Assembly (NCBI GenBank): GCA_025060325.1
Contig: JANXBW010000025.1
Coordinates: 1-64,000 of the forward strand
From: Thermoguttaceae bacterium
GTDB lineage: Bacteria; Planctomycetota; Planctomycetia; Pirellulales; Thermoguttaceae
DNA: 64,000 bases
Direction: 5' to 3'
The notes beneath the pieces were generated by a model. The model had not been told where the DNA came from. It did no database searches and was given only the letters and a program-made list of their open reading frames with translations. The translations under genes were made by a program, and so were the position numbers. This document shows, in pieces, positions 31,901-48,618 of this stretch (position 1 is the stretch's first letter; the number at the start of each line of letters is the position of its first letter).

Positions 31901-33308
31901 ACTTGTCGGCAAGCTCGGCCGGGTATAGGTCGTAGTCGGTCTTGCCTTTTAGCTCTTCGAGACTCTTGCCCACCAACCGACAGAAGGATTGATTGGCAAA
32001 GGTGAATCGCCCCTCGAGATCTTTCCGTAAGACATGAACCGGCAGATTTTCGACGAGGGACGAGTATAGCGCCTGCGAATCGCGGAGGTCTTGCTCGACG
32101 ATCTTGCGGCGTTCAATTTCGGCTTCGAGCGACTCCTTTGCCCGCCGAAGGTCAGCGGCCCGTTGGGCCACCAACTCTTCGACCCGAGCAGTTCGCGTGA
32201 CCAAAGAGCTGACATAGGCGGCCGCGAACAGGCTCAGAGAAAGCCCGGCAGCCAGCACGACCCACGGCGGCAGGAAGACACTCCGTAGCTCGTACAAGTC
32301 GGTGGGAGTGCAAAGGATCGTCCACGGCATACCGGGGGTGGCTAAGCGTTCCGCCCGATAGAGCCGGGCTTCCAGGGCCTCGGCTTGAACGGACCGAGGG
32401 ACAAACGGGCGGCTTCGCAGCGAACATGTTTCCCAAGCAAGGAGGGCCGAACCACACTCTGGCGGATCGTCGTACGCAGAGACATCGATCCCGCAAGCCG
32501 GCAGGCCGGCCAGCGCTTCCCGCAGGGCCTCACTGACATCGACCACCACGCCCGCAAACCCGAGGAGTCCCTTTCGCCTTTCGGCGGGGAGAGTTCCCGG
32601 CTGGCCCCGGCGGTAAACAGGCCAGAGAATCAGCTCCCAGTCGTTTACTTCCTGGGAGAGTTTTTCGGACGGAGCAAGTAGACAAAACCGGAGGGCGGTC
32701 GGCTCGTTGCCCTCTGCTGCGGCCCAAAGCTTCTGGGCCACCTTAGTCGAGGCCCCAAGATCCAGCCCCATCGGCAGCCGGATGGCCCCCGGCGGCTCGA
32801 CGATGGCAATGGGGAAATACTCCGGCCGGTTGCCCGCCCGCCTCAATTGCCCATCCGGACCCCACTCGGAAATTTCATACAAAGCTTGCAGCTCGGCTTG
32901 CTGGGATTGCTCGTGTACCCGGCGTTGGCTAGGTCCGATTCGGGGGATCCAGCAAGCTGCTTGTCGCTCTTTACAACTTGTCAGAAGGGGTCCCACAAAA
33001 GCGACAAATTCTTCCCGGGAAACCTCCACTGAGGCTTGGAAAAGCCCGCCCAAGCTGAGGGCGGCTTCCAAGTTATGTCGCAGCCGGTCGTCCACAGCCC
33101 GGAGGCGAAGCTGCGAGTCGCCCTCGAATTGCGCCCGCAATAGCCTATCGTAATGCCGAGAAAGACCTACCCAACTTCCAATACTGATGGCGCCACCCAG
33201 GATTAAGACGACAACAAGCGCCACACTCCCCCAGGAGCGGTGTCGCAAGGCTAACAGGGCATACAGCGACGCCGTTGACTCTTTATCAACCCAGGCTTGA
33301 GAGACCAT
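28989..33308 (-). CDS. Multi-domain hybrid sensor histidine kinase (CHASE-PAS-PAS-HisKA-HATPase-REC-REC-HPt)
   Basis: A 1439-residue inner-membrane sensor. Membrane helices at about 27-49 and 346-370 enclose an extracytoplasmic CHASE-like domain. Then come a coiled segment (375-408), PAS 1 (410-530) and PAS 2 (535-655). The HisKA phospho-acceptor is H684 in SHEIRNPLN, where Asn replaces the usual Thr. The HATPase has an N-box at 793-804, DTGIG (833-837) and GGTGLGL (862-868). REC 1 has D976 and REC 2 has D1116. A Pro/Gly/Ser-rich linker of about 130 residues (1195-1325) leads to an HPt domain with H1378 (AHTLKGS). This makes a complete His-Asp-His relay able to feed the two REC-HATPase proteins encoded downstream. 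The ATG has a GAGGAGG unusually far upstream. Confidence 0.93.
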   Translation of the reverse strand: MVSQAWVDKESTASLYALLALRHRSWGSVALVVVLILGGAISIGSWVGLSRHYDRLLRAQFEGDSQLRLRAVDDRLRHNLEAALSLGGLFQASVEVSREEFVAFVGPLLTSCKERQAACWIPRIGPSQRRVHEQSQQAELQALYEISEWGPDGQLRRAGNRPEYFPIAIVEPPGAIRLPMGLDLGASTKVAQKLWAAAEGNEPTALRFCLLAPSEKLSQEVNDWELILWPVYRRGQPGTLPAERRKGLLGFAGVVVDVSEALREALAGLPACGIDVSAYDDPPECGSALLAWETCSLRSRPFVPRSVQAEALEARLYRAERLATPGMPWTILCTPTDLYELRSVFLPPWVVLAAGLSLSLFAAAYVSSLVTRTARVEELVAQRAADLRRAKESLEAEIERRKIVEQDLRDSQALYSSLVENLPVHVLRKDLEGRFTFANQSFCRLVGKSLEELKGKTDYDLYPAELADKYRADDRWVVESGQLFECEEENIQDGRRRFVHVMKSPVRDAEGKIVGTQVVFWDVTAQREAQAALEHERYLLHALMDHLPHAIYFKDREGRYLRINKALARSIGLDDPAQALGKTDFDFFAPEYAVEARRDELRVMDTGLPIVDKEERVIWRDGRSCWMSTTKLPLLDERGQIVGTFGISRDITERRKAAEALRAAKEAAESASQAKSTFLANMSHEIRNPLNAIVNMARLLLDGPVTKEQRDYLLAIKESGETLEALINDILDFSKIEAGRLTLEEEPFDLHETVQDTMRWLAIRAHQKGLEIACHLRRGVPVGVVGDNTRLRQVIVNLVSNAIKFTERGEVELTVEPEGFVNGHVILHFKVRDTGIGISPDKIHKIFEAFEQGDTTRRRRYGGTGLGLAISRRLVEAMGGRIWVESTPNVGSTFHFTVRLGLSPEEKEEPHLVIPPLLRGLRVLVVDDNATNRRILGEILESWEMQPILAESVEQALAILVDAERAGNSIPLVITDVNMPGQDGYELVRIIKQDKKLGSTVIMMLSSGERPEDLRHVESLGVSAYLLKPVKQSELLDAIIMALGVEPVEDRRESVEIFRRVPRRPLRVLLVEDSLINQKLAVGMLHRWGHEVVVASNGLEAVQIYQKEHFDLILMDVQMPEMDGFEATEAIRALERRTGKHVPILAMTAHALKGDRERCLAAGMDDYVGKPIRPELLFEKLELLTAAFPVRPAAEVSALASQASEAQSGQHPTPVQPLGPKDGALVLGGESSDKPPGEAVPADSPIFQAALSAGVQAEQALSVGRPQGGGAQNGEPAPSFQPPSGQAVPVGGGASDLGQPAQPSGEPKMEPPAPKSGQPEPSPWPEFSLQEALRSVRGDTELLRVVCEAVVEDTPRLLNEIEKAISEKNAKNLRLYAHTLKGSIRYFGPTELFNRCFELEKMGRDGLFDGAEELFALVKQDTERLRSFLQSYLQSQFRP

Positions 33309-34677
33309 AGGGAGAACAAATTGACCCTCCTCGCGAGTAGATAAGCGGGAATGATGGCAGCAAACTTGTCAGAAACCCGTTCCCCCGGCCCCAATGGCCG
33401 AGAAGATGACCCACCCTAAGCGAACCGAAACTTAACAACGAAAGACGACTGCAATTTCGATATGTAATCCATCCCTTCAGCATACCTAATTGTCTGGGCC
33501 TACACAAGCAAAGGCCAGGGGCCAGCGCGGATAAAGCCCGTGCGCGGGGAAAAGTCTCCCAGGTTCTCAAAAAAACCGGAGGCGTACTTGTCCGGCCAAT
33601 CTTTCGTCGATTTGCCCCCATCTCCGCGGCCAAAGTGCGGCTGTTTGGATCCGGGGGCTCAGCTTTTTCGTTCCGGGCGGCCCCCGTTTGCACAGCTTGC
33701 AGAATCGTCGCGTGCCGAGGCGGACAGCCGAGCTGCCGGCGGACTTTACGTAAGCCTTTTTTGAGACTTTGCGGTACCACCCTTTGTAAACGCGCCCGGA
33801 TGTGGGGAGGGCCCAGGTTCCCCACTTGGCGGCGGGACCGCTGGCCACGACCTGACTTGCTTACGATGTCTGATGGACAGGCGGGCCAATCCGGTGGGTC
33901 ACGGTAGGGTCTTTAAGCCGAACGTCTTAAAGCGAATTGGCCTGACAAAAATCTGGCCCAACAAATGCCCACGGTGTTGTGGCCTGTGCCGGCGTGGCGA
34001 ACAAATTCCGCGATATGCCTTGTCTTGTCGTAAGTTTCGCACCCTATGCTCGTCCGGCGGCTTTACTGAGTTCCCAGGGCAATTGGGATGGACGAAGACA
34101 TCCGCCTTTCCCGTTTTCCAAGAGGACTTATTCCTCGGCTGGGTGGTCCGGAGCATGTTCCGCTTTTGGCGGTGTGGTGCCGGGGCACATCCCCACACCG
34201 GCCAAGGCTGGTCAGTTCCCGGCAATCCTTGCGATATTTCGGACGACTTCAAAGCGCAAATTTCCGGCATCACGCAAGCTACCCTTGGACCCCTCACTCA
34301 AGATGAGAGGGCGCCCCGAAAACCCTCGGTTTACACTGGCCTTTCAAACTTGATTTGCTAGGTGGACCATTTGGCCAGTCAACGGGTCCCTCGGCAAACT
34401 CGAAGACCACAATTCCTGGCCAAAGCAATCGCCGGCCGGCAGCTTATTTGAGGGGGCAAGCTCCTGGAATCTAAAATCGAGGTGGATGAGCACACAGTAG
34501 CGGAGCCGGGGATACCCCCGGTTATATGGCGCCATACCTGCAGCGCGATAATTTCTAGGTTTTCCAGAGCTTCGCTCTTCGGGCCATTGGCGCCTTTTTT
34601 GCACCGGAATCCACGTGCCCTTCTCCTTTAGACGGCGGAAGCAGGTAAAGCGCACGCTTAGCGAAGGCGAAGCAAAA
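33309..34677. other. 1.37-kb divergent gene-free region
   Basis: It separates the hybrid kinase and the DUF4175-like gene and must contain both promoters. Small open frames exist but resemble no family and lack good starts. One hairpin, GTGGGGA/TCCCCAC with a GC-rich 10-base loop, lies at 33802-33825. I see no other supported element. Confidence 0.45.
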
Positions 34678-37600
34678 ATGGCGGGCAATTCCCATCTTCA
34701 GGCGGAAAATTGGGCTTATTCTGCGGGGGCTTCCGCTCCGGCTGTGCCTCGCGACTTTGCTGAGTCTGAACACCTAATCGATGCCCAGCTTCGCCGAGTG
34801 GCTCGCCGGGTGAAGTTGGCAGACATAGTCGCCCGATGTTGTGCCACCCTCTCGCTGGTGACTGTTTTGGTTTTTTTGGCAATTGTGTGCGACCACTGGG
34901 TTTTTCCGAGGGGATTGCCGCCTTGGGGCCGAGCCGCGGCCCTCGGACTTGGTCTTCTCGTCGGTTTGGGCGGGCTTTTTGGGCCGGTGTTGGGGATCCT
35001 TCTTCGGCGGGTAAGTCCTGCTTTTGCCGCCTTGATGATTGAACAAGGTGTGCCGTGGATCAAAAACGCCCTGATTAATTTCGTGCTCCTTCGATCGGAA
35101 TTTAGGCTCGCAAGAACCCGTGGCGGAATGAGCACCGGTCCTAATAGGGGAATCGGTGCCGGCCCAGCCGAGAGGCCGGGGTCGGAAAGGCCCGATGATA
35201 ACCCGGAGGATGGTCGGCCAGCATATTTTGCCGCCTCCCCGGAACAGGATCTAAGGCAAAAAGTGCTTCTTTCGCTTGGCTACACGGCCGCAGCTCAGCT
35301 TGCCCGGGTACCTCCCCATGTGACTGTGGACTATTCGCCTGCCATTCGGCGGGCTTACCTCCTAGTTGGTCTGTGGGCATTGGTCCTGGGCTACCTAGTC
35401 CTCTCGCCAAAAAGCGTGTTTGTCTCCCTGGTGCGTATCTCCCGGCCGTGGGACGTAATTCCCCCCGCTACTCGGGTAACCATTCGCGAGGTAAAGCCCG
35501 GCGACACCGCAGTAGAGGCTGGGTCGAAGGTGACTGTTCAGGCGGTCGTAAGGGGGTTGCGTCGAGACGAAAAGGTTGCCGTGGTTTTTCGCCCGGCAGA
35601 TGGTCGGCTTAAAGAGCAGGAAATAGTCCTCTCGGCCGTGGCGGGTGGGCACCATTTTGAGGGGGTCTTGTCCGGGGGTGAGTCGGGGATTGTCGAGGAC
35701 CTCGTTTACAGGGTTCAGGCTGGCGACGCGGAAAGCCCAGAATTTCGCATTACCGTTCTCCCGCCGGTGACGTTGGTCCCGAGCCGAATTCGGATTCAGC
35801 CACCGCAATACACGGGGCTACCCGCCCGGGTCATCGAGGGGGTAGCTGACTTCGAGGGGCTTGAGGGAAGCGAAATCGATATGGAGCTGCAGGCCTCCGA
35901 AGACTTAGCTGAAGCTATTCTGGTGGGTGAGCCTCCCCTTGAGCGAAGGGTTCCGTGTCGGCCTTTGGGGGGAAAGGAGTTTTCCGTCCTATTTTCGCTT
36001 CCACGGGTTGGGCCGGGTGTCCCCCGGCCGATTTCGCTGACTTATAGCTTTAGCGGCCGGAGCAAGTCTGGCCGGGGTCTTCGACCGAATACTCAGCACC
36101 GTGTGGATATTCTCCCCGACCGGCCGCCGGAGATTCGAGTTGTTAACCTTTCTGCCGAACAAATTGATCTTCCATTGGGAGGCCGGCTGGAAATTCGACT
36201 GCAGGCGGTCGATCCCGACTTTGGGCTAAGCCGGGTGGAGCTGTGGACAGAAAGGGGGGGTAAATCTGCCCTTTACGAGACCCTTTTAGACCGGGCGGAT
36301 GCCAGCAAGGCCTTCCGCGGATTGTGGGAAGGCAGAGCATACTTCACGCCGAGTGAATTAGGGCTTCGACCGGGGGATCGGCTACGGCTGTGGGCCGTCG
36401 CTGTCGATTGCCGGCAGCCGGAACCCAACCGGGCTGAGTCGGCCAAATGGGATATCCGCATTGGCTCCCCACAAAACGGGTCTAGCGCGGAAGGTCTTCT
36501 GGCCCAACGTGATACGGCCGACGGAGCTCAAACGGCAGCTGCCCGAGGGGGTGGGGAATCGACGACTGGGGCGGCGACGGGCCAGAAGCCTGCCCAAGGC
36601 GAGAGAGATGAGACCGCAGCGGCCGAAAAGCCAGACCCGGCACGGTCCGGGGGGGAAGCCGGGGGTAGTGGGGAGGCATCTAGCGCTGAGGGGGTTTTGG
36701 AGCTAAAACCATTAAGGCCACAAAGTTCCAAGGAAAGCGAAACGCCTTCCGCCGAACTAAAAGATCACCGGGTGGTAGCCCCGGAGGCGGGGGGCCAACC
36801 CACCCTTGGGCCTGAAGGAGGGCCTCAAGCCGGCAAAGGGCGCGCAGGTTCGGAACGCAATTCTGAAGGTGGGCAATCGCCCGAAGTGTCGCAGTCTCCG
36901 GCGGCTTCCCCCGCTGGGGATTCTAACGAGGCTTCGGGGACTGGTCGGACACAGAGTTGGGAGGATGGCGGTCGGGAGTCCTCTCAGTTGGCGGCCGCTG
37001 GGGACTTGGCCCAAGCTCAATCAGGGGAGGCTTCCGCGTCACAATCGGCCGGCACGACTGGCCAGTCAGGTCCGGAGACCCGGCCGGCGGGGGCGGCCGG
37101 CCCGCAATCGCGGGAAGAGGCCGGCCAAGGCACCGGATCTGGGCAGCCGCGTGGAAGTTTTTCCCCGGCCGAAGGGAGTGGAACTCAGGGGAGTTCGGTA
37201 AATAGGGTTAGCCCTGCCGACCCGGGCGAGGTCTTCGAGCGCATCCTCAACTACTTGTCCCAAAATGCGCGAGGTGATGGACAGCTCCGGCAGGCCCTGC
37301 AAGATTTGCTATCAGGCAAGGGGGAGGCTAGCCCTGGCCAAGTAACGGACGGCGCGCAGGATAGGCCGCGTCCGGAGGGTCAACTTGCACGGCCAGAGGT
37401 AACGGCGTCGAGCTTGCAGCCAAATCAACGGTCGCCGGAGGGAACTACCCCGCCGCTTGAAGGATCCGCGTCAAAGGCGGCGGGTCAGCAAATTGCCAAG
37501 GGGCCTGGGACAGGTCCAGGGGGACCGTCGGAAGCTGGTAATCAGACTCCGCCCGGGGGAGCAAGCCAGGGCCCACCCTCCGGTGGCAGTCCTAGGGAGG

Positions 37601-39132
37601 GTGTGACTCCGGGGGCAATGCCCATCGAGGGAAACGAACGTTTGAGCGTCGACCAGTCGCAGGCTCAGGGAGGCCCAGACTCGACGGGGGCTAGCGGGGG
37701 CGACTCAAGGGTGGGACCCAGAAGCGCGGATATTAGTGGCGGCAATCCACCTCAGGGGAGAGGGGCGCCGGCAGCTCGAGAAACGGTGGGAAGTGTTGAC
37801 CCCTCAGGCCCCCAGGCCGGTCAACCTCAAACCTCATCGCCTACCGATGTGGAGGCTGGGGCCGAAAGCCGCGGAACACCAGCCAAATCAGTTGGAAACC
37901 CCTCAAGTAACGCTCAGCCCGCCTACGGCCAGCAGCGGCTAGGAGAAGCCGGCAAACCACCTGCTCCTTCCGGGGAATTGGCCGGGCAAGTTTCCCCTCG
38001 TCAGCCTGGCGGTAAACCTTCGGTGGTCCAGGAAACTTCTGAGCTTTCCTCTGGGCCTGAGGCCCAAATAGCAATGGGCGGCGCCGAACGGTCGATGCCG
38101 CCGCAAAAGTCCGTTAAGGTTCCTGCTGAGGGTGGGGGATTGGGTCAGCCCGCCGGTGAGAGAGCTGCGGAAACTCGGCCCGGGAGTCCAGCGGTGACTG
38201 CGCCGGCACCTGCCGAAGCGAATCTTCCTCGCCGTGGTGAGGCATCTTTGCCGCCTGGCAGCCAGTTCCGCGGAAACCCGGAAGCCCTTTCCCCCAGTAT
38301 TAGCCGACACCAAGCCCGCGCGACCGGGGAGTTAGAAGGTGACCGTTCTGGTGGAGGCGGAGCTGGGGGCGGTCAACCTGCCCCTCAGCCGGGGCAAGGT
38401 TCAGGCGGTCAAAGTTCGCCGGGTGAAACGGGAACTCCCATTGTCTCTCCAGGAGGGCAAGAACTTGCCCGTGCTGGGGGTTCCCCCTCGGCCCCAAGCA
38501 CCGCCCAAGTCGGTTCCCCCAGTTCCGCGGCTAGTGCGCGAATGGCTGGCGCCGGCAAAGCATCGACACAAGGGACCGCCGGAAGCGCGCAGGACCAGTC
38601 GACCCAAGGATCGGGTGGCGGACCACAGGCGGCTCCGCAAACGCCGCTTTTGTCGACAAGAACTTCAAGTGGTGGCAATCCCCTGGTGGGCGGTGGGCCG
38701 GGACCGCCGGGTCAAAGGGCCCCATTACCGGGGACTCCTCCCCCTGTCTATCGGCCGGATCCAGTGAACCTGGAGTATGCCGAAAAGGTAACAGCGCTTG
38801 TCCTTGAGTATTTGGGCCGGCAGATTCAACGTGGCCAATCTGACAAGGATCTTCTTGAAGCCTTGGGGTGGTCGGAGGAGGATCTTATTCGCTTTTACCG
38901 GGAATGGGCGGAACTTCGTCAACAAGCGCTCCAGGGTCGCGATCCTTCATCAGCGGAAGGCTACCGCCGGGCGCTTCAGGCATTGGGACTTCGTCCTGGT
39001 GCGAGGGGGCTAAGCCCTGGTTCTTTACCGGGAAAGGTTCCGCCGGTAAAACAAAGCGATGTTCCGGAGCCGCCGCCCGAGTGGGCAGAGTATTTCCGGG
39101 CTTATCGGGCCAGCGTGGCCCGCGGGCAGTAA
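34678..39132 (+). CDS. Giant DUF4175-like membrane protein with a long disordered region
   Basis: The product has about 1484 residues from the chosen ATG; a GTG at 34615 would add 21. The N-terminal third has three hydrophobic segments (TLSLVTVLVFLAIV, then AAALGLGLLVGLGGLFG, then YLLVGLWALVLGYLVL) and afterwards Ig-like beta domains with phrases such as RIQPPQYTGLP and PDRPPEIRVVN. Both are familiar from planctomycete DUF4175-type proteins. From about 36480 to 38700 the protein is a Gly/Ser/Pro/Gln/Glu-rich stretch of some 750 residues with almost no hydrophobic residues. The C-terminal 130 residues are again ordered and helical (ALGWSEEDLIRFYREW), resembling the conserved end of the family. 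Such genes usually sit with MoxR/DUF58/VWA genes, which are absent here. Function unknown. Confidence 0.78.
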   Translation: MAGNSHLQAENWAYSAGASAPAVPRDFAESEHLIDAQLRRVARRVKLADIVARCCATLSLVTVLVFLAIVCDHWVFPRGLPPWGRAAALGLGLLVGLGGLFGPVLGILLRRVSPAFAALMIEQGVPWIKNALINFVLLRSEFRLARTRGGMSTGPNRGIGAGPAERPGSERPDDNPEDGRPAYFAASPEQDLRQKVLLSLGYTAAAQLARVPPHVTVDYSPAIRRAYLLVGLWALVLGYLVLSPKSVFVSLVRISRPWDVIPPATRVTIREVKPGDTAVEAGSKVTVQAVVRGLRRDEKVAVVFRPADGRLKEQEIVLSAVAGGHHFEGVLSGGESGIVEDLVYRVQAGDAESPEFRITVLPPVTLVPSRIRIQPPQYTGLPARVIEGVADFEGLEGSEIDMELQASEDLAEAILVGEPPLERRVPCRPLGGKEFSVLFSLPRVGPGVPRPISLTYSFSGRSKSGRGLRPNTQHRVDILPDRPPEIRVVNLSAEQIDLPLGGRLEIRLQAVDPDFGLSRVELWTERGGKSALYETLLDRADASKAFRGLWEGRAYFTPSELGLRPGDRLRLWAVAVDCRQPEPNRAESAKWDIRIGSPQNGSSAEGLLAQRDTADGAQTAAARGGGESTTGAATGQKPAQGERDETAAAEKPDPARSGGEAGGSGEASSAEGVLELKPLRPQSSKESETPSAELKDHRVVAPEAGGQPTLGPEGGPQAGKGRAGSERNSEGGQSPEVSQSPAASPAGDSNEASGTGRTQSWEDGGRESSQLAAAGDLAQAQSGEASASQSAGTTGQSGPETRPAGAAGPQSREEAGQGTGSGQPRGSFSPAEGSGTQGSSVNRVSPADPGEVFERILNYLSQNARGDGQLRQALQDLLSGKGEASPGQVTDGAQDRPRPEGQLARPEVTASSLQPNQRSPEGTTPPLEGSASKAAGQQIAKGPGTGPGGPSEAGNQTPPGGASQGPPSGGSPREGVTPGAMPIEGNERLSVDQSQAQGGPDSTGASGGDSRVGPRSADISGGNPPQGRGAPAARETVGSVDPSGPQAGQPQTSSPTDVEAGAESRGTPAKSVGNPSSNAQPAYGQQRLGEAGKPPAPSGELAGQVSPRQPGGKPSVVQETSELSSGPEAQIAMGGAERSMPPQKSVKVPAEGGGLGQPAGERAAETRPGSPAVTAPAPAEANLPRRGEASLPPGSQFRGNPEALSPSISRHQARATGELEGDRSGGGGAGGGQPAPQPGQGSGGQSSPGETGTPIVSPGGQELARAGGSPSAPSTAQVGSPSSAASARMAGAGKASTQGTAGSAQDQSTQGSGGGPQAAPQTPLLSTRTSSGGNPLVGGGPGPPGQRAPLPGTPPPVYRPDPVNLEYAEKVTALVLEYLGRQIQRGQSDKDLLEALGWSEEDLIRFYREWAELRQQALQGRDPSSAEGYRRALQALGLRPGARGLSPGSLPGKVPPVKQSDVPEPPPEWAEYFRAYRASVARGQ

Positions 39133-39535: not shown

Positions 39536-41311
39536 ATGTTTGGCTTTGTTTACGCTTTTATGTTTGCTCTTGCAGCTCAGGCAGTAGATGTTCCCGAACC
39601 GCAAGCGATCCTCCGCACCTTGCGGGATGGGCATCCGCGGCTTATTGCTCCGGCAGGCGCGGAAGAGGAGATCCGGAAGGTTGTTCGTCAACACCGGAAG
39701 GCAGCGGAAATCTTTCGAAGCGTTTGGGAGGAAGCAAAGCGGATTTTATCGCAACCGCCCGTCCAGTATCGGCTCGTTGGGCCGCGACTTCTTGGGGAAA
39801 GTCGCCGGTGCCTTTACCGCGTGTATGTCCTAGCCACTGTCTATAGGCTTGAGAAAGACGAGCGGATGGCCCGCCGTGCAATTGAGGAGATGCTTGTTGC
39901 CGCTGGGTTTAAAGATTGGAACCCCAGTCACTTTCTCGACACGGCTGAAATGACCCACGCGCTAGCCATAGGCTACGACTGGCTCTACCACGTCATGAGC
40001 GAAGAGGAGCGGCGGACCATTCGGCAGGCCATTATCGAAAAAGGTCTCCGTGAGGGAGAGAAAGTGTACAAATCCGGCGGGTGGTGGGCACGGAGTCGCT
40101 ACAACTGGAACCAGGTTTGTAACGGAGGGATGACCATTGGTGCCTTGGCCATTGCTGACGAAGAGCCGGAACTTGCCGGGTGGATTGTCCATCAGGCTTG
40201 CCGATCCCTTCCCTTAGCCATGGCGGAATATGCGCCGGACGGAGCCTGGGCAGAGGGACCGGGCTACTGGAATTATGCCACAAGTTATACCGTGTACATG
40301 TTGGCGGCATTGCAAACGGCTCTGGGCACCGATTTTGGTCTTAGCGATCTGCCAGGATTTTCCGAGGCGGGGACCTTCCGCATCCATGCTATTGGGCCCT
40401 CCCAGCTTGCTTTTAACTTTGCCGACGGAGGCGAGGGGGCGGGCGAGTCGGCAGCCATGTTTTGGCTTGCCCGGCGGTTCGATAAGCCTCAGTATGCTTG
40501 GCACGAGCGAGAAGTCATCGGGGGCGACAGTGCCCTTCACCTTTGGTGGTTTGATCCCCGAGGCCAAGGATTAGCAGGCGAGCCTTTGGCGAAACACTTT
40601 CGGCATGTTGATGTAGTGACCATGCGCACCTCCTGGGAACCTACGGCCGAGTTCTACGTAGGGCTTAGAGGTGGGGATAATGCAGTCAATCACAGCCATT
40701 TGGAACTAGGGAGTTTCGTGCTTGACTTTGAGGGGAGCCGTTTCGTCAACGACTTGGGGCCTGATGATTACAATTTGCCGGAGTATTTTGGCCGCCGCCG
40801 ATGGACTTACTACCGGCTCAATACGGAGGGCCAAAACACTCTATGGATAAATAAAGATAATCAAGATCCTCGCGCGGTCGCCCCGGTCACTCACTTTGCG
40901 ACATCTCCGGAGCGGATGGAGGCGGAGGTTGACCTTTCCGCCGCTTATCGCCAGCATGCTCGGAAGGTCACACGGCGCGTTGTGCTTGAGCGTTTGGCCA
41001 ATGGTCGCTGGATCCTGACGCTGACCGATCGGTTGGAAGGGTGTCCCAAAGCGGAGATCCTCTGGCAAGCCCACACTCGGGCCACGCCGAAACTTTCCGG
41101 CGACCGAGCGGATCTAAGCCTCGATGGCAAGACGTTATCGGTCAGGATCTTAAGCCCCGCTGGTGCTCAGTTTGAACTGCTTACCTGTTCGCCCCCGCCT
41201 CCGCAGAACCCGAATAAGGGTTTCCAGAAACTAGGGATTCGTCTTCAGGGCACGGAAGAACCACTCACCCTCAGCGTGCGATTTGCCTCCCTGCAGGTAG
41301 CGGATAAGTGA
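39536..41311 (+). CDS. Secreted heparinase II/III-family polysaccharide lyase
   Basis: The 591-residue product starts with a short signal peptide (MFGFVYAFMFALAAQA). An (alpha/alpha) toroid follows (about 50-330) with the phrases GYDWLYHVMSEEER, SRYNWNQVCNGGM and YAPDGAWAEGPGYWNY. The C-terminal heparinase II/III beta-sheet domain (about 350-590) contains GGDNAVNHSHLELGSF, where the His residues fit the catalytic region of the family. GGGAGG lies eight bases before the ATG. Such lyases cleave uronic-acid polymers such as alginate or glycosaminoglycans; the exact substrate is unknown. There is no adjacent transporter or regulator. Confidence 0.85.
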   Translation: MFGFVYAFMFALAAQAVDVPEPQAILRTLRDGHPRLIAPAGAEEEIRKVVRQHRKAAEIFRSVWEEAKRILSQPPVQYRLVGPRLLGESRRCLYRVYVLATVYRLEKDERMARRAIEEMLVAAGFKDWNPSHFLDTAEMTHALAIGYDWLYHVMSEEERRTIRQAIIEKGLREGEKVYKSGGWWARSRYNWNQVCNGGMTIGALAIADEEPELAGWIVHQACRSLPLAMAEYAPDGAWAEGPGYWNYATSYTVYMLAALQTALGTDFGLSDLPGFSEAGTFRIHAIGPSQLAFNFADGGEGAGESAAMFWLARRFDKPQYAWHEREVIGGDSALHLWWFDPRGQGLAGEPLAKHFRHVDVVTMRTSWEPTAEFYVGLRGGDNAVNHSHLELGSFVLDFEGSRFVNDLGPDDYNLPEYFGRRRWTYYRLNTEGQNTLWINKDNQDPRAVAPVTHFATSPERMEAEVDLSAAYRQHARKVTRRVVLERLANGRWILTLTDRLEGCPKAEILWQAHTRATPKLSGDRADLSLDGKTLSVRILSPAGAQFELLTCSPPPPQNPNKGFQKLGIRLQGTEEPLTLSVRFASLQVADK

Positions 41312-41786
41312 ACATGTGATCCCTATCCTCTCGGGCAACTGGCTCGGCAGGGCAGTTCCCCACGATAACCCGCAGGATGGACAGAGGCTTTGGCAAGCGG
41401 CGGAAGCATCTGATTGCGCTTGCTTTGTGGGGCCGCTCGGCGAGGTAGAAGCGCGAAGCTGCTTGCGGGCGGAGAAGAGTTTCCTTGAAGCGGCAGGATG
41501 GTGCCTGGACTCCGCGGAGGGTGGCGTTCCGGGCGGGGGCACCTCGGGCAATTTGTTGTTGGTTTATTCGGCGACTGTCTTATTGTCTTGCTAGACTAGT
41601 CGGATACGTTCTTGACGCTTTTCGGCAGCGGCAATAGAGTGATTTGGTTGCTCCGGCACCTGGTGGGGCTAGTCTGCCAAGCGCCTGTGACTTTCCTCCT
41701 TCGTTGACCTTAACGGTGCGTATACCGGGAGAAGCACGGCCCATTGTTTCACAGGCGGGAACTTTTTTTGTTGCGAACTTTAGGCT
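41312..41786. other. 475-bp spacer upstream of tex
   Basis: No gene recognised. An A/T-rich patch with seven consecutive T (about 41764-41770) lies just before the tex start. No clear promoter or hairpin was found. Confidence 0.35.
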
Positions 41787-44700
41787 ATGGCTAAGCAGGT
41801 AACGATCGATATTCGCGATATCGCTCAGGAACTGAACCTGGCGGTGTGGCAGATCCAGGCGGTAATCGAGCTGCTTGAAGCGGGAAACACAATTCCCTTC
41901 ATCACGCGGTACCGCCGGGATCGCACCGGAGGTTTGGACGAGGAGCAGCTCCGCCGGATTCAGTCCCGGCTTAGCTCGCTGCGGCTCCTGGCCGAGCGCA
42001 AGCAGACTATCCTTCGTTCGATAGAAAGCCAGGGGAAACTCACGCCGGAGCTTGAGAAGGCGATTTTGGAGGCGGACTCGCCCTCCCGGCTGGAAGACCT
42101 TTATCTGCCATACAAGCCCAAGAAGCAGACGTTAGCCACACTTGCTCGCTCCCGCGGGCTCGAGAAGTTGGCTGAGGAAATCCTTCGGGCTGATCCGGCG
42201 TGCGCCGACTTGGACAAACGGGCGGCGGACTTTGTTGATCCCGACAAAAAGGTTCACCATGTTGCCGATGCTTTGGCCGGAGCTGGACATATTGTGGCCG
42301 AGCAATTTAGCGAGCGGGCCGACCTCCGGCAACGGCTTCGTCAAATGTTGCGGGAACGAGCCTTTCTGGTGGCCACCGCAGCCGAACCCCCAAGAAGTTT
42401 ACAGCAGGCAGCGGCCACGACCGCGGCCCCGCGCCAGGCAGGCCCGAAGGGAAAACCCGTTTCGGCTCCGCCATCGGCTCCAGCACCTTCCGGGGATGGG
42501 GAAGTTGCTGTGCAGGCGAAAGACCGCGTTGCCGGTGAGCCGGTCGAACAAATGGCCGGTAAAGAGCCCGACCGTTCGCCGGAACTTGTACCACTGGCTT
42601 CTTCCGAGGGATCTAGCAGCGGGCTTGCGGAAGGAAAACCGGAACCGGAAACCGTGGCAGAATCGCCGGCTGAGGTGCCCTCCGAGGCTCCATTGGGGCC
42701 AGCCAGCGCGACCGACGTGGCGGCCACGGAGCAAGGAGCGGAGCCCGGTCCGCCGCCGTGTGAGCAGCACCCCGTTGGAGCGCCTCCGGAAGCGCAAACA
42801 ATCGGGGGCCAAATGATTGCGGAGCGGGCCTCCGGCCAATCGGCCGGCGTCGCGATGGCCGAAGAAAAGGGTGCCACTGCGGAGCCCACTCCCCCTGGGG
42901 AGGCTTTAGGGGAGAGTTCAGGTCGGGTTGAAAGCGATTTAGCTGAGTCGGAGGGCATGGGAAGTTCGGCTGTGGACCCGGAGGCGGGTAACGGCAACGG
43001 TGCGAGTGGTCATGAGGACGCTGGCAACGGCAATGGTGGACATCTAGATCCCGATTGCGGAGATGATTCGGACAAAAGTGAATCGCCGGAGTTAAGCGAC
43101 GCTGGGTCAACACCATACGATCCCCAAGGTAGTCGCGACTTTCCAGCTGTGCTCGATCCGCAAGCCGATCCGGGGGGTCAACAAGGCCCTGAGCAACCTG
43201 AGCCCTCGGCCGGGCCAGTAGTTCCCTCGTCGTCCAGCGCAGGGGAAACTGCCTTGCCTTCTACCACGGCAGATGCTCCCCCTTTGCCGAAAGCGGAAGG
43301 GGAAACAACCGGGCCGATTGGCGAAGCGAGCAAACCTCCCGAAGAGCGCCTTGCTCCCCCAGCGCCTGAAGCTCAGCCGCCTGCCACCTTCGGGGCCGGG
43401 GAGCCGGCGGCCGAAGAAGCATTTTCTTGTGGAATCCCGGGGTTTGAGGCCCTTGCGGGAGAAGCACAAACTGCGGAAGCTCTGGCGAAACCGGCGCTTT
43501 CAGGTGAGACTGCGGAAGAATCTGCGGCTCCAGAGATGCCGATTGAGCCGGGGAAGCTGGAGACCCCTGCCGCGAGGGCTTTGAGCGGCGAAAACGCTTT
43601 GGAGGCTCCTTCCTCAGCCGACGTGAAAGCAGCCGCGCCAGGAGCCACGTCCGAAGAGGCACAACCTGTTTCCGCCGCAGTGTTACCGGAGGGTGAAGCT
43701 GCGCCGGCTGCGCAGACGCAGGCCGCGGAGCCGGCACGCCCGAAGAAGAAGCGAAAGAAAAGGCGCAAGGAAAGGAAAAAAGCCGGGGCAGAAAAGACTG
43801 CGGGCGAGGCCGGCGTCGCTGCTCAGGCCACTGAACCCCAAGCAGCTCGGCCCCAGAAGCTCTCCAAGGCTGAGGAGCGTTGGCTGCGCTCTCAGGCGGC
43901 GTTTCGTGATTACTTCAATTTCCGACAAAAGATCGATTCGGTCGTACCGCACCAAACCCTCGCCCTTAATCGGGGGGAACGCCTCGGCGTATTGCGGGTC
44001 AAGTTCGAGTACGACTTTGAACCACTTATGGAAGAGGCTGAGAAGCTTTGCATCCCGCCGGGGCATCCCCATGCTGACTTTTTGCGGGGTTGCCTCCGAG
44101 ATGCATTGCTTCGGCTGGTGATGCCCGCGCTTGAGCGGGAGCTTCGCCGGGAGCTCACTGACAAGGCCGAGGAACATGCCCTTCGCGTTTTTGCGCGCAA
44201 TCTCCGTAAGCTCCTCTTGCAACCGCCTGTGCGGAATCGTCGAGTGCTGGCGATTGATCCCGGTTTGAAAAACGGTTGCACCGCCGTTGCTTTGGACGAG
44301 TTTGGCAATGTCCTGGGTTATGGGGAATTTTTTGTCATCGGTCCGCCGGAACAGCTCGAAAAAGGCAAAGCGCTCCTTTGTCAACTGATCGAGCGCTACC
44401 GGATCGATCTTATTGCCATCGGCAATGGCACTGGGTCGCGGCGGACGGAGCCTTTTGTGGCTGGTCTGCTTGCCAACGAGCTAAAAGACCGCAACATTCA
44501 CTACTGTATCGTCAACGAAGCGGGGGCAAGCCTTTATTCCACCAGCCCGATCGGCCGCGAGGAATTTCCCGATTACAGCCCAGCCCTTCGGAGCGCGATT
44601 TCGATCGGCCGGCGCTTGCAAGATCCGCTTAGTGAACTAGTGAAGATTGAGCCGGCGCATCTGGGTGTGGGACTTTATCAACATGACATTCAAGCGGCCC

Positions 44701-46124
44701 ACCTCCGTGCGTCTTTGGAGGAAGTGGTGGAGTCATGTGTCAACTACGTTGGTGTTGATGTCAACACGGCCAGCGTGGCCCTCCTGCGGTATGTGTCGGG
44801 ACTGAATCAGCTTACGGCGCGGCGGATTTATGAATACCGCAGGCAAAACGGCCCCTTCCGGAACCGGCTGCAACTTCGCGAAGTTCCCGGCATTGGCGAG
44901 GCGACTTTCGTCCAGGCCGCCGGCTTCCTCAAAATCTTGGACGGCGACAATCCCTTGGATGCAACCTGGATCCACCCGGAAAGTTACCCCGTGGCCGAAA
45001 AGGTCCTCGAGTTTTTGGGGTTTAAACCGGAGGACCTTCGCCACCGCGAGCAAGTAGAGAAGTTGCGGCAGGCCATCGACAAAGTTAATCCAAAGGAATT
45101 AAGTCGACAGCTTCGGGTGGGGGAGTTAACCCTTCGCGATATCCTTTCGCAGCTTGCTCGGCCAGGGAGGGACCCCCGGGAGGATCTGCCGGGACCGATT
45201 TTCCGTCAAAGTGTCCTCCGGCTTCAAGATCTTAAACCGGGAATGGCCCTCCAGGGAACCGTCGCCAATGTTGTCGACTTTGGCATATTTGTTGACTTTG
45301 GTCTGCCAGTGACCGGCCTTGTTCACATTAGTGAAATGTCAACCAAATATGTCCGAGACCCGCACGAGTTGGCGGAAGTGGGCGATATCGTCCACGTATG
45401 GGTTCGCGATGTGGACATCAAGCGACGCCGAGTGGCGCTAACGATGATCCCACCTGGGACAACGCGGGAGCGGGTCCAGCGACCAAGCCCAGCGAAGGTG
45501 GTCAGCCCGCCGGCAGCTGCCGGCACTGCCGAGGGAGAGCGGCCTACCCAAGTCTCCCGCCAGACACGCCCACCTAAAAAGGACCAAGCGCCAAAGCCCA
45601 GGCGAAGCGAGGCGGGGGAGGCTCCCCAAAAGCCTCAAGAAAAGGCCCCTGTCGTCCAGGTGACGGAAAGAACTGAGGTCCCGGCTCGACCGGAGACACC
45701 TCGAGCGGCCCGGCCAGCGCGGAAGCGGTCTGCCCCGGCTCCGCCAGTGCAACTTTCCGAGGAGGTCTTGGCCGGCAAACAGCCGATGCGCAGTTTCGCC
45801 GAGCTGGCTCAATACTTCCGGCTGAAGCGCGAGCTTGAGTCGAAGCAGCAGAAACGAGCGGCGGAAAGTCCTCCTAAAGGACGCGGGGAACAAGGCCCCG
45901 CTCCCGAGGAAAGCCGGCCTGCCCAAGACGTTTCCGCTTCTCCCTTGGCGGAAGGGGAGGCAGTGATTCCCCTGCCTATTGCCCCGATACCTGCGGCACC
46001 CGAACCTACCGCCGCGGGGCAAGCCACAGCTGTGCCAGTCGTCCCCGCTCCGACCGAGGCTGCGGCCGGCTTACCGCCGGAAGGGTCCGCGCAAACTCCC
46101 TCGGAGGGGAACACTGTCGACTAG
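41787..46124 (+). CDS. tex: Tex-family RNA-binding transcription accessory protein with a large insertion
   Basis: Tex proteins bind RNA and influence transcription and RNA decay. The normal parts are present. The N-terminal helical region (1-195) has NTIPFITRYRRDRTGGLDE and SRLEDLYLPYKPKK. A YqgF-like RNase H fold follows at about 815-940 (RVLAIDPGLKNGC). The HhH region has VGVDVNTASVALLRYVSG and REVPGIGEATF, and an S1 domain ends near 1228 (VDFGIFVDFGLPVTGLVHIS). Between residues 197 and about 690 lies an insertion of roughly 495 residues rich in Ala, Glu, Pro and Gly, with a Lys/Arg cluster near 652-668. A standard Tex has only about 25 residues there. A Pro/Ala-rich tail of about 215 residues follows S1. 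Total 1445 versus the usual 720-780. Confidence 0.93.
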   Translation: MAKQVTIDIRDIAQELNLAVWQIQAVIELLEAGNTIPFITRYRRDRTGGLDEEQLRRIQSRLSSLRLLAERKQTILRSIESQGKLTPELEKAILEADSPSRLEDLYLPYKPKKQTLATLARSRGLEKLAEEILRADPACADLDKRAADFVDPDKKVHHVADALAGAGHIVAEQFSERADLRQRLRQMLRERAFLVATAAEPPRSLQQAAATTAAPRQAGPKGKPVSAPPSAPAPSGDGEVAVQAKDRVAGEPVEQMAGKEPDRSPELVPLASSEGSSSGLAEGKPEPETVAESPAEVPSEAPLGPASATDVAATEQGAEPGPPPCEQHPVGAPPEAQTIGGQMIAERASGQSAGVAMAEEKGATAEPTPPGEALGESSGRVESDLAESEGMGSSAVDPEAGNGNGASGHEDAGNGNGGHLDPDCGDDSDKSESPELSDAGSTPYDPQGSRDFPAVLDPQADPGGQQGPEQPEPSAGPVVPSSSSAGETALPSTTADAPPLPKAEGETTGPIGEASKPPEERLAPPAPEAQPPATFGAGEPAAEEAFSCGIPGFEALAGEAQTAEALAKPALSGETAEESAAPEMPIEPGKLETPAARALSGENALEAPSSADVKAAAPGATSEEAQPVSAAVLPEGEAAPAAQTQAAEPARPKKKRKKRRKERKKAGAEKTAGEAGVAAQATEPQAARPQKLSKAEERWLRSQAAFRDYFNFRQKIDSVVPHQTLALNRGERLGVLRVKFEYDFEPLMEEAEKLCIPPGHPHADFLRGCLRDALLRLVMPALERELRRELTDKAEEHALRVFARNLRKLLLQPPVRNRRVLAIDPGLKNGCTAVALDEFGNVLGYGEFFVIGPPEQLEKGKALLCQLIERYRIDLIAIGNGTGSRRTEPFVAGLLANELKDRNIHYCIVNEAGASLYSTSPIGREEFPDYSPALRSAISIGRRLQDPLSELVKIEPAHLGVGLYQHDIQAAHLRASLEEVVESCVNYVGVDVNTASVALLRYVSGLNQLTARRIYEYRRQNGPFRNRLQLREVPGIGEATFVQAAGFLKILDGDNPLDATWIHPESYPVAEKVLEFLGFKPEDLRHREQVEKLRQAIDKVNPKELSRQLRVGELTLRDILSQLARPGRDPREDLPGPIFRQSVLRLQDLKPGMALQGTVANVVDFGIFVDFGLPVTGLVHISEMSTKYVRDPHELAEVGDIVHVWVRDVDIKRRRVALTMIPPGTTRERVQRPSPAKVVSPPAAAGTAEGERPTQVSRQTRPPKKDQAPKPRRSEAGEAPQKPQEKAPVVQVTERTEVPARPETPRAARPARKRSAPAPPVQLSEEVLAGKQPMRSFAELAQYFRLKRELESKQQKRAAESPPKGRGEQGPAPEESRPAQDVSASPLAEGEAVIPLPIAPIPAAPEPTAAGQATAVPVVPAPTEAAAGLPPEGSAQTPSEGNTVD

Positions 46125-46245
46125 GTAGCACCGCGGCGTGTGCCGTCAAAATAGGGAGAATACATGGGCTGGGAAAAATCCAGCCTTAGCTGAACCTGGA
46201 GCCACCGGCGGGGAGGAAATCGACCGCCTTCGGTGGCCTCCGTTA

Positions 46246-48618
46246 TCAATCCGGGTAAAGCAGATACCGCCACCGGCGGGCTTGGAAGGCTTTTAATTCG
46301 GGCTGAATAATCGGGTCAATCTCCTCGTAAGGTTTTGCTTCCAATACGGCCTCAAAGACTCTTTGGTTGCCTAAGAGGCGAAGATAAGGTTCGGCCGTCC
46401 ACTTGTCGGGGAAAAGCCGGCGCATCGCCAACGCCACTTCCAGGCCGAAGCGCACAGGGGGGAATGTCCGGCGATCATCTAACGTAAGCTCCAGCCCGTG
46501 GCATGCCCGATTTTGGAACACGTAACTCTCGGGGACGAATGTGATCGGGCGGAAGGACACCCCCGGGATCTGCCGATCCATGAGGGCTGCCGCCAACTTC
46601 TCCGCGTCGAGCCACGGGGCACCAAATCGCTCAAATGGTGTGGGAGTTCCCCGGCCCACCGACATGTTTGTGGTTTCTAGAAGGCCGATTCCTGGGTAAA
46701 AGAAGGCGGCCGGAACGGTCTTCATGTTGGGAGAGGGCGGAATCCACCGGAGCCCCGTATCCTCCCAGAACATCCCTCGCTGCCAGCCTTCCATGGGGAT
46801 GACGATAAGCTCGAGGTTAAGCCCCCGTTCCTGCCGAAACATCTGTGCCAACTCGCCAATGGTCATGCCATGGCGAATCGGCAGCCGGTGATAGCCGACG
46901 AAGGATTCCTTGTCCGGATCAAGAACTGGACCTTCGACGGCTTGGCCGCCAATGGGATTGGGGCGATCGAGCACGACAAACCTGATGCCCACCTTGGCGG
47001 CCTCTTCCATGGCATACCCCATGGTGGAAATATAAGTGTAAAACCGTGTTCCGATGTCTTGGATGTCAAACACGAGGGTGTCCAGTCCCGCGAGCATCTC
47101 CGGCGTCGGCCGCCGTGTTTTCCCGTACAGGCTGTAAATCGGTATACCAGTTAGAGGGTGCTTTTGGTCGGGAATATGGGCCACGTCGAGCTTGCCCTCA
47201 AATCCATGTTCCGGGGCAAAGAGGGCAACAAGCTTGGCCTCTGGAGCGCGGAGGAGCCGTTGCCAGGTGGGCACTCCGTCGCTGCCTACGCCGGTGTGAT
47301 TCGTGATAAGTCCAATCCGCCGACCTTTGACGGCCCAAAACAGGTCGGCCTCGAGGACTTCCGCCCCTGTTTTGACCACTTTTCTGGACCTTTGTCCAGT
47401 AAGCGCCTTGGCGGCCACAGTGCCGATCTGAGCTATAAGCGGGTTAACCGATCCGGTTCCGTCTGGGTGAAGACGGTTGCTTAGGAAGATCACTGCCAGA
47501 TCATTTTCCGGATCAATCCACATGCCCGTTCCGGTAAACCCGCCGTGACCAAACGCCCAGGCGCTGTATTCAGGACTGCGGTTAGACGAGTAGCTGCTCC
47601 GGACGTCCCAGCCCAAACCGCGAAACCCTCTGCCTCCCGGAAGGCCGTGGGGTTGAGTCATCAGCCGGAATGTGTGGGGTGCAAGAATCTCTTTGTCTCC
47701 GGCTTTGCCGCGGCAAAGGAGCATATGGGCAAACTTCCAGAGATCGTCGGCAGTAGAAAAAAGCCCGGCATGACCGGCCACTCCGCCCAATCGTGCAGCC
47801 CTCGGGTCATGAACCGTGCCCCGCAGGAACGTCCCGTTTACTTTCTCGGTGGGGGCGATCCGAGGCCGAAGATCTGCCTCCGGGCAAAACCGGGTATCGT
47901 TCATGCCCAGGGGCCGGAAGATTTCATCCACGGCAAATTGATCAAGCCGTTTGCCGCTTACGCGCTGGATTAGTTCTCCTAGCACGATGAATCCCACGTC
48001 GGAGTAAACAAAGCGCTGGCCGGGGGGTGCAATCGGCTTGCCACCGAGGATTCTCTCCATGGCAGAGGATGGGCCACCCTCGTATTCCGCCAGTGGGTTG
48101 GCTGCCGGTAGCCCGCCGATATGAAGGAGAAGTTCTCGGACCGTCACCTTCTCCTTACCATGTACCCCAAACTCCGGAATATACCGCGAGACAGGAGCAT
48201 CTAAGTCCACAAGCCCGCGCTGCCAGAGGATCATAATGCTCGTGGCCGTGGCTACGGGTTTTGTAAGCGAGGCGAGGTCGAAAATCGTCTCCGGCTCCAT
48301 GGGTTCAGGGCTCGGCTCCAGCTGCCGATGGCCATAGGCTTTGCGGAAGATCACACCCGACCGTCGCCCAATAAGCACAACGCAGCCGGGCATTTGGCCG
48401 CTTTTGATGGCCTCCGCTACAAGCTGGTCAATGGCTGTTAAGGCGGAGCTTTCCCCGAGCGGTTCTTGAGGTGCCGCGGCCGGCGGGCTCTTTGTTTCAC
48501 TATGGGCGACGGTTATTTCCCAGAAGGCAAACACGAAACCTGTTATGAAAACGAGCAAAGGATAGATCCGTTGACGAACTAAAAGGCTCTTTTGATTACC
48601 GAATTGCGGAAGGCTCAT
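46246..48618 (-). CDS. Beta-lactamase-type serine hydrolase fused to DUF1343 (NamZ-like muramidase)
   Basis: A 790-residue exported bifunctional protein. A signal/anchor segment occupies about 16-38. Residues 60-385 form a class C beta-lactamase/esterase-like domain with the SxxK motif SLTK (Ser117, Lys120), a YSDVG tyrosine motif and a HAGLFST region. Residues about 405-785 are DUF1343, whose founding member NamZ releases N-acetylmuramic acid from peptidoglycan fragments. Supporting phrases are GLITNHTGV, ALFAPEHGFEG, VFDIQDIGTRFYTYIS and LDRPNPIGG. The pairing suggests two-step trimming of cell-wall fragments, a peptidase or esterase followed by a glycosidase. The ATG is near the anchor; its ribosome site is weak. 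It is transcribed away from tex's end. Confidence 0.9.
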   Translation of the reverse strand: MSLPQFGNQKSLLVRQRIYPLLVFITGFVFAFWEITVAHSETKSPPAAAPQEPLGESSALTAIDQLVAEAIKSGQMPGCVVLIGRRSGVIFRKAYGHRQLEPSPEPMEPETIFDLASLTKPVATATSIMILWQRGLVDLDAPVSRYIPEFGVHGKEKVTVRELLLHIGGLPAANPLAEYEGGPSSAMERILGGKPIAPPGQRFVYSDVGFIVLGELIQRVSGKRLDQFAVDEIFRPLGMNDTRFCPEADLRPRIAPTEKVNGTFLRGTVHDPRAARLGGVAGHAGLFSTADDLWKFAHMLLCRGKAGDKEILAPHTFRLMTQPHGLPGGRGFRGLGWDVRSSYSSNRSPEYSAWAFGHGGFTGTGMWIDPENDLAVIFLSNRLHPDGTGSVNPLIAQIGTVAAKALTGQRSRKVVKTGAEVLEADLFWAVKGRRIGLITNHTGVGSDGVPTWQRLLRAPEAKLVALFAPEHGFEGKLDVAHIPDQKHPLTGIPIYSLYGKTRRPTPEMLAGLDTLVFDIQDIGTRFYTYISTMGYAMEEAAKVGIRFVVLDRPNPIGGQAVEGPVLDPDKESFVGYHRLPIRHGMTIGELAQMFRQERGLNLELIVIPMEGWQRGMFWEDTGLRWIPPSPNMKTVPAAFFYPGIGLLETTNMSVGRGTPTPFERFGAPWLDAEKLAAALMDRQIPGVSFRPITFVPESYVFQNRACHGLELTLDDRRTFPPVRFGLEVALAMRRLFPDKWTAEPYLRLLGNQRVFEAVLEAKPYEEIDPIIQPELKAFQARRWRYLLYPD

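Follow-up and report, generated by a model that had tools for sequence, protein, structure and literature searches.

A long, predicted disordered insertion in the Tex protein of a Thermoguttaceae bacterium and a conserved motif in its C-terminal tail

The tex gene in a 64,000-nucleotide stretch of a Thermoguttaceae genome (assembly GCA_025060325.1, contig JANXBW010000025.1, positions 1 to 64,000; hereafter the window) raises the question of whether a block of about 500 residues in the middle of its product truly belongs to the protein and, if so, what it might do there. The gene lies at 41787..46124 on the (+) strand, and its frame is open from end to end as a single ORF of 1445 aa. The product contains Tex_N, Tex_central_region, Tex_YqgF, HHH_3, HHH_9 and S1 in this order, all above the curated Pfam cut-offs, which is the complete Tex domain set. 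The Tex_central_region itself is divided: its profile positions 7-61 match before the insert and 69-178 after it, with 504 residues in between, and the insert therefore lies inside this domain rather than between two complete domains. As all of the domains are present, we regard a Tex protein with a split Tex_central_region as a variant within the Tex family, a yardstick of our own.

The borders were set by alignment with Tex of Pseudomonas aeruginosa (PDB 3bzc), in which residues 21-198 pair with 23-198 and residues 703-1251 with 206-750, with 504 residues against 7 at the same site. On the (+) strand, the Pfam matches, this alignment and the composition delimit an N-terminal part with Tex_N and the first part of Tex_central_region (aa 1-198, 41787..42380), the insert, rich in A, P, E, G and S and predicted to be disordered (aa 199-702, 42381..43892), the core with the rest of Tex_central_region, YqgF, HhH, HHH_9 and S1 (aa 703-1236, 43893..45494), and a C-terminal tail, also predicted to be disordered (aa 1237-1445, 45495..46121). 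The initial annotation had proposed an in-frame coding insertion here, and the single ORF with continuous homology on both sides bears this out, although its borders (42376-43860) are better drawn at 42381-43892. It had also described a low-complexity Ala/Glu/Pro/Gly-rich block, which the composition confirms, a basic cluster near the end of the insert, which we recovered as PKKKRKKRRKERKKAG (aa 652-667, 43740..43787, (+) strand), and a long tail after S1, which measures 209 aa as bounded here against the approximately 215 claimed.

The insertion is large and abrupt, as would be expected of a sequence that is missing from the mature protein, whether as an intein, an intron, a programmed frameshift, an assembly error or the junction of two proteins. 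However, no Pfam family was detected in the insert at E 0.1, Hint and homing endonuclease domains included, and an intein was thus rejected, as was a group I/II or other structured intron RNA, since no Rfam match reached the gathering score over 41300-46600. No inverted repeats were found in the insert, and its direct repeats are limited to short two-copy ones plus one 33-nt tandem repeat within the basic cluster, on which ground a tandem-repeat expansion was rejected; an internal sigma-70 promoter for a second protein was likewise rejected, as 42200-44000 holds no promoter-like site of this type. There was no sign of a frameshift or a repeat array at the insert. In addition, in-frame inserts of 60-697 aa occupy the same site in all 27 measured members of the family, and a separate Thermoguttaceae metagenome-assembled genome (MAG) carries 516 aa there. 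Taken together, we consider it extremely improbable that the insert is absent from the mature protein.

The open frame was kept in none of 2000 base-shuffled copies of the insert, and its continuity thus exceeds what chance would give. The initial annotation took the open frame as a sign that the insert is under selection for coding; this does not follow, because a stop anywhere within it would remove the downstream core. Synonymous codon use is uninformative on the coding frame of the insert, as its correlation with the flanks is 0.75 in frame and 0.78 and 0.60 out of frame.

The distribution of the insert was examined in 60 genomes of the same order. A Tex-core match was obtained in 55 of these, and was absent from G007, G010, G020, G038 and G039 (G038, G039 and G020 being 99%, 94% and 94% complete, respectively). 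With four partial matches set aside (G013, G018, G030 and G036), 52 regions were taken from 51 genomes, and 49 could be measured, the N-terminal part being missing from the same frame in the other three (L037, L039 and L045). The 49 include one Tex with a single stop in the core (G031), a degenerate second copy with two stops (G017b; the stops of these two genomes concern L063 and L084) and one cut by a contig end (G014). The insert length ranges from 7 to 697 aa across these 49 proteins: 60-697 aa in the window's family (27 of 27, median 199), 7-240 aa in the 21 Tex of other families (median 42), and 7 residues in the degenerate second copy, which is one of the seven Tex with a bare 7-residue loop. 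The three genomes of the window's genus have the three longest inserts found, 504, 516 and 697 residues, and the closest named relative, the uncultured Thermoguttaceae MAG mentioned above, has a core that is 88% identical. Other parts of the protein also vary within the order (L083, L079 and L081): the core of the G045 protein contains an additional insert of about 170 residues, and Tex of G008 and G051 have some 40-60 extra residues ahead of S1.

Outside the order, the site is generally short. Tex is patchy in the phylum, with 60 Tex_YqgF matches in 56 of 119 sampled planctomycete genomes, two of the matches belonging to the order, so that the description of Tex in the initial annotation as a highly conserved core protein holds less well here. 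The matches outside the order were taken up in two sets, one of 40 frames and one of 17 frames that cover 18 matches. After the exclusion of one frame of the second set without its N-terminal part (G137), 56 Tex or Tex-like frames were measured (40 and 16), and 50 of them have at most 15 residues at the site. Four of the remaining six hold 20, 71, 73 and 165 residues, the latter two in G173 and G100b, respectively, at the insert site itself. For the other two, G158 and G108b, the values were 125 and 200, although inspection by eye places the additional residues approximately 60 residues upstream of the site, and the N-terminal match of three divergent long Tex-like frames (G087, G144 and G159) is likewise broken upstream. 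Elsewhere in the phylum there are highly divergent Tex-like frames with lengths of about 930-1210 aa (L135, L136, L187-L191 and L193-L198), and in G108, G084 and G100 such a frame accompanies a canonical Tex of 731-841 aa. A search for related loci contributed just three planctomycete Tex among 11 loci. Of the 60 plasmid-borne Tex listed out of 110, none is named as planctomycete, and in 59 of the 60 rows the tblastn alignment with E. coli YhgF is unbroken (one of these being a partial match), with no large insert seen in them. Thus, the insert is a real, lineage-typical and extreme disordered insertion in a known protein.

If the insert is part of the protein, it may still be without a function of its own. 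An alternative hypothesis is that the loop is merely tolerant and has drifted in length in a near-neutral manner, with mutation pressure and weak selection allowing hydrophilic in-frame filler to grow and only solubility and charge being policed. The range of 7-697 residues within a single order is in keeping with this. In a tree of the N-terminal part and core (84 rows, a quick method, without G014, G031, G017b, G158, G108b and the 16 phylum rows measured later), long (60 residues or more) and short inserts require at least nine changes, of which at least four are forced by starred branches. The divergent Tex-like proteins of the phylum, with inserts here and elsewhere, also point toward drift. 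On the other hand, within the window's family there is a starred clade whose 25 members have all retained a long insert, which is not readily expected from drift.

The sequence of the insert was then compared within the genus. The identity between the inserts of G000 and G001 is 0.295, against a mean of 0.267 and a maximum of 0.283 for 15 shuffled controls, and that between G000 and G002 is 0.279, against a shuffled mean of 0.281. For the closest pair (G000-G001), the insert and the tail have pN/pS values of 0.64 and 0.67, respectively, compared with 0.10 in the N-terminal part and 0.12 in the core; the dN/dS of the insert is not measurable, as even against the closest genome the synonymous sites are at or close to saturation. 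This near-shuffled identity and the pN/pS of 0.64 are what drift would produce, and the insert's own sequence appears to be nearly unconstrained, with the bulk charge layout being what seems to persist. A single short element, GNGNGGHLD (43023..43049, (+) strand), stands out in the alignment of the three genus members, as GNGNGGH is common to all of them inside otherwise unalignable inserts; the DNA pattern for GNGNGGH has a single match in the genome of the window.

Estimated from composition only, the mean TOP-IDP score is 0.31 in the insert and 0.10-0.11 in the N-terminal part and core. By the same kind of score, Tex has a disordered run of 388 aa, the second longest among 506 greedily called ORFs, some of them maybe spurious, in 863 kb of the same genome (the window and the first 20 kb at most of 40 contigs). 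Runs of at least 100, 200 and 300 aa occur in 26, 9 and 3 of these ORFs, respectively, and the existence of other long runs (26 of 506) again favors drift. Against it, this genome has two Rho-like frames (491 and 437 aa), neither of which is strongly expanded; Rho frames of other order members reach 707 aa, and Tex may therefore not be the sole expanded factor in the order. The longest run of the sample (454 aa) belongs to a 1505-aa frame upstream of Tex (34615-39129, (+) strand), which has no Pfam match. The window also encodes a 1439-aa hybrid histidine kinase (28992-33308, (-) strand) with CHASE, PAS, HisKA, HATPase, receiver and Hpt domains and a disordered stretch of 134 residues ahead of Hpt.

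Although the sequence varies, the arrangement of charge in the insert is consistent. In the window, an acidic body (42381..43739, (+) strand) is followed by the basic cluster near the core end; the net charge per residue is -0.10 over the insert, as bounded for the charge comparison, when its final 40 residues are excluded. The same layout was found in 33 to 34 of the 34 inserts of at least 80 aa, while within the genus the sequence identity is about the chance level: all 34 have a net negative body (mean -0.14), and the last 40 residues are net positive in 33 of them (mean +0.17), the exception being G019 with a net charge of zero. The paired difference between body and end gives a Wilcoxon p of about 1e-10, with the reservation that the 34 inserts are related by common ancestry and are thus not independent. 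Compared with shuffled versions of the same insert, the end is more basic (p<0.05) in 33 of the 34 cases. The 40-residue window with the most basic charge is located at the core end in 32 inserts, and near the insert start in the other two, G002 and G011. This consistency of acidic body and basic end speaks against drift. The lengths of insert and tail are correlated across 46 proteins (rho 0.56, kinship being ignored).

A basic character ahead of the core is strongest in the Tex proteins with long inserts. The 25 residues ahead of the core anchor have a mean net charge of +6.3 in 37 long-insert Tex, compared with +3.3 in the 11 Tex of the order that have short inserts (10 of 11 positive) and +1.8 in 30 other planctomycete Tex, namely those of the first 40 phylum rows that have the core anchor. 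In many of the long-insert relatives, as judged by eye from 12 of the 37 rows, the basic part resembles RRExKKKKLEERRIKA and abuts the core. The window's genus is weak in this respect, with +2, +2 and +5 in G000, G001 and G002, respectively; in the first two, a K/R cluster lies about 35-50 residues ahead of the core instead, and G002 has no more than a mildly basic end.

Across the two regions of predicted disorder, strong conservation is limited to a single element, which lies in the tail, outside the region that the initial annotation had singled out, and was missed there. The 209-residue tail is hypervariable except for a block of 22-28 residues, which in the window is PVQLSEEVLAGKQPMRSFAELAQYFRLK (aa 1320-1347, 45744..45827, (+) strand; identified by pattern and by profile, E 2.0e-17) and in the order has the approximate consensus P-[IL]-[ST]-x-x-M-K-x-G-K-E-P-[ML]-R-[ST]-F-x-[DE]-L-x-Q-F. 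The pattern was found in 45 of 46 tails of at least 30 residues, and the remaining tail (G011) has the same block with G in place of S/T. Across the 45 tails, the mean pairwise identity is 0.56 in the 22 motif residues and 0.19 in the 22 residues upstream. A profile built from 29 segments matched 57 places in 55 of the 60 order genomes. Fifty-five of these places are on contigs with Tex, one of them in a second Tex fragment of G016, and the others are a weak match (E 0.02) in another frame of G027 and a 190-aa frame of G020 that is cut by a contig end and has no Tex domain by profiles. Among the five order genomes without the motif, four have no Tex-core match, while the Tex match of the fifth (G018) stops with 145 bases left before the end of the contig.

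In the phylum sample, the motif was matched in only 5 of 119 genomes. Two of these belong to the order, two are from another family of the class, where the motif is again within the Tex tail, and the fifth is a weak match (E 0.0017) in a 265-aa frame of G066; a third Tex from that other family (G081) has a tail of only 3 residues. Against Pfam, one of the 29 members gave a weak match to DUF7026 (0.027) and one to HEAT_GCN1_C (0.21), and the profile search of PDB families gave no significant match (best E 0.12). The motif is thus conserved and nearly confined to Tex, and drift leaves it unexplained. A sequence that is kept within disorder is most simply read as a docking site. Short hydrophobic C-terminal elements, such as TLGDLLKKAG and SAMMDALAAAM, were also observed within about 12 residues of the C-terminus in distant Tex tails (L112, L119, L132, L134 and L118) and in E. 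coli YhgF (L137). Of 16 distant planctomycete tails, 6 have a looser motif-like pattern close to the C-terminus, as does E. coli YhgF, and a seventh has it far from the end; as this pattern was picked after inspection, it is a lead only, and the hydrophobic element of distant Tex is possibly a general Tex docking helix.

On these grounds, we tentatively favor a model, to which we give somewhat less than an even chance, in which the insert would be a flexible linker with segregated charges through which the capture of nucleic acid by the core is tuned, while the tail motif would dock a partner. A disordered linker may have grown into a loop of Tex_central_region that is probably exposed at the protein surface. 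Its basic end would add non-specific affinity for RNA or DNA beside the HhH/S1 core, and its acidic body would compete with nucleic acid for the basic surface, thereby causing weak auto-inhibition, and would keep the chain open. The linker would also let the N-terminal lobe move relative to the core, and the tail motif could form a short helix that docks a partner from the transcription or ribosome machinery; together, linker and docking motif would act as flexible arms around the Tex core. The recurrence of one site and one charge layout despite different sequences, and an expansion that is unusual in the genome, suggest such a linker. However, the basic element appears weak or displaced in the window's own genus, and the insert is missing altogether from some of the order's Tex proteins, as the seven bare loops among the 49 demonstrate, both of which argue against it. 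Drift accounts for most features of the insert at lower cost, and in view of the charge layout, the retention in the family clade and the tail motif we regard it as possible, if rather doubtful.

Published work supports this model indirectly. E. coli YhgF is described as binding sigma-70 in pull-down, SPR and two-hybrid experiments, the last being medium-dependent (PMC13298495), and Tex of P. aeruginosa as binding a promoter in EMSA (PMC13340108). For Bacteroides Rho, basic motifs of an intrinsically disordered region (IDR) are reported to bind RNA and drive RNA condensation, with acidic parts predicted to hinder these motifs (PMC13269538). Given its composition and predicted disorder, the Tex insert may be counted among the long charged disordered regions of RNA-binding transcription proteins, and it could be proposed that the linker and tail act as a condensate scaffold by RNA-dependent complex coacervation like the Rho IDR. 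Tex is the same kind of host, the insert has basic and acidic stretches like those reported for Bacteroides Rho (PMC13269538), and its opposite charges are segregated along the chain. With 6 aromatic residues in 504 and no RGG, however, the insert is not favored for aromatic-sticker condensation, although charge-driven coacervation would still be possible, and its net negative charge (K+R 40 against D+E 83) should repel RNA. A condensate scaffold is therefore unlikely in our estimation.

A more specific proposal, which we rate as improbable, is that Tex of this order would be a flexible Spt6-like hub, with an RNA-sensing linker and a clade-specific motif that docks one fixed partner, for example RNA polymerase or the ribosome. 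If this were true, Tex would here serve as a transcription hub that responds to RNA and possibly forms condensates, a kind not met in our literature search, which found no paper on this Tex insertion or on the tail motif. Returning to the linker and docking motif that we favor, the locus is useful in several respects. The molecular role of Tex is poorly defined, and the range from 7 to 697 residues that orthologs show at a single site is a natural test of the hinge. The tail motif, conserved amid unalignable sequence, is the best handle, as it could serve as bait for a Tex partner. In addition, the insert is probably a clean bacterial example of a disordered region that loses its sequence and retains its charge layout.

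Comparison with known systems places these features in context. Bacteroides Rho is like the Tex of the window in having a large charged disordered region with basic and acidic stretches at set places; nevertheless, it is a different protein, its charged motifs are conserved in sequence whereas only the charge layout is kept in the window's genus, and its condensation has been demonstrated, while that of Tex would be conjectural (PMC13269538). The Tex/YhgF proteins of P. aeruginosa (3bzc) and E. coli have the same domain order, with homology continuous on both sides of the insert, but 3bzc has 7 residues at the insert site and E. coli YhgF a total of 773 aa, compared with 1445 here. Eukaryotic Spt6 has a core homologous to Tex (SPT6 chains being among the structure matches), and this core is flanked by charged disordered arms. 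The disordered acidic part of Spt6 is N-terminal and its C-terminus bears tandem SH2 domains, whereas in the Tex of the window the predicted disorder lies inside Tex_central_region and the tail carries a short motif unrelated to these domains.
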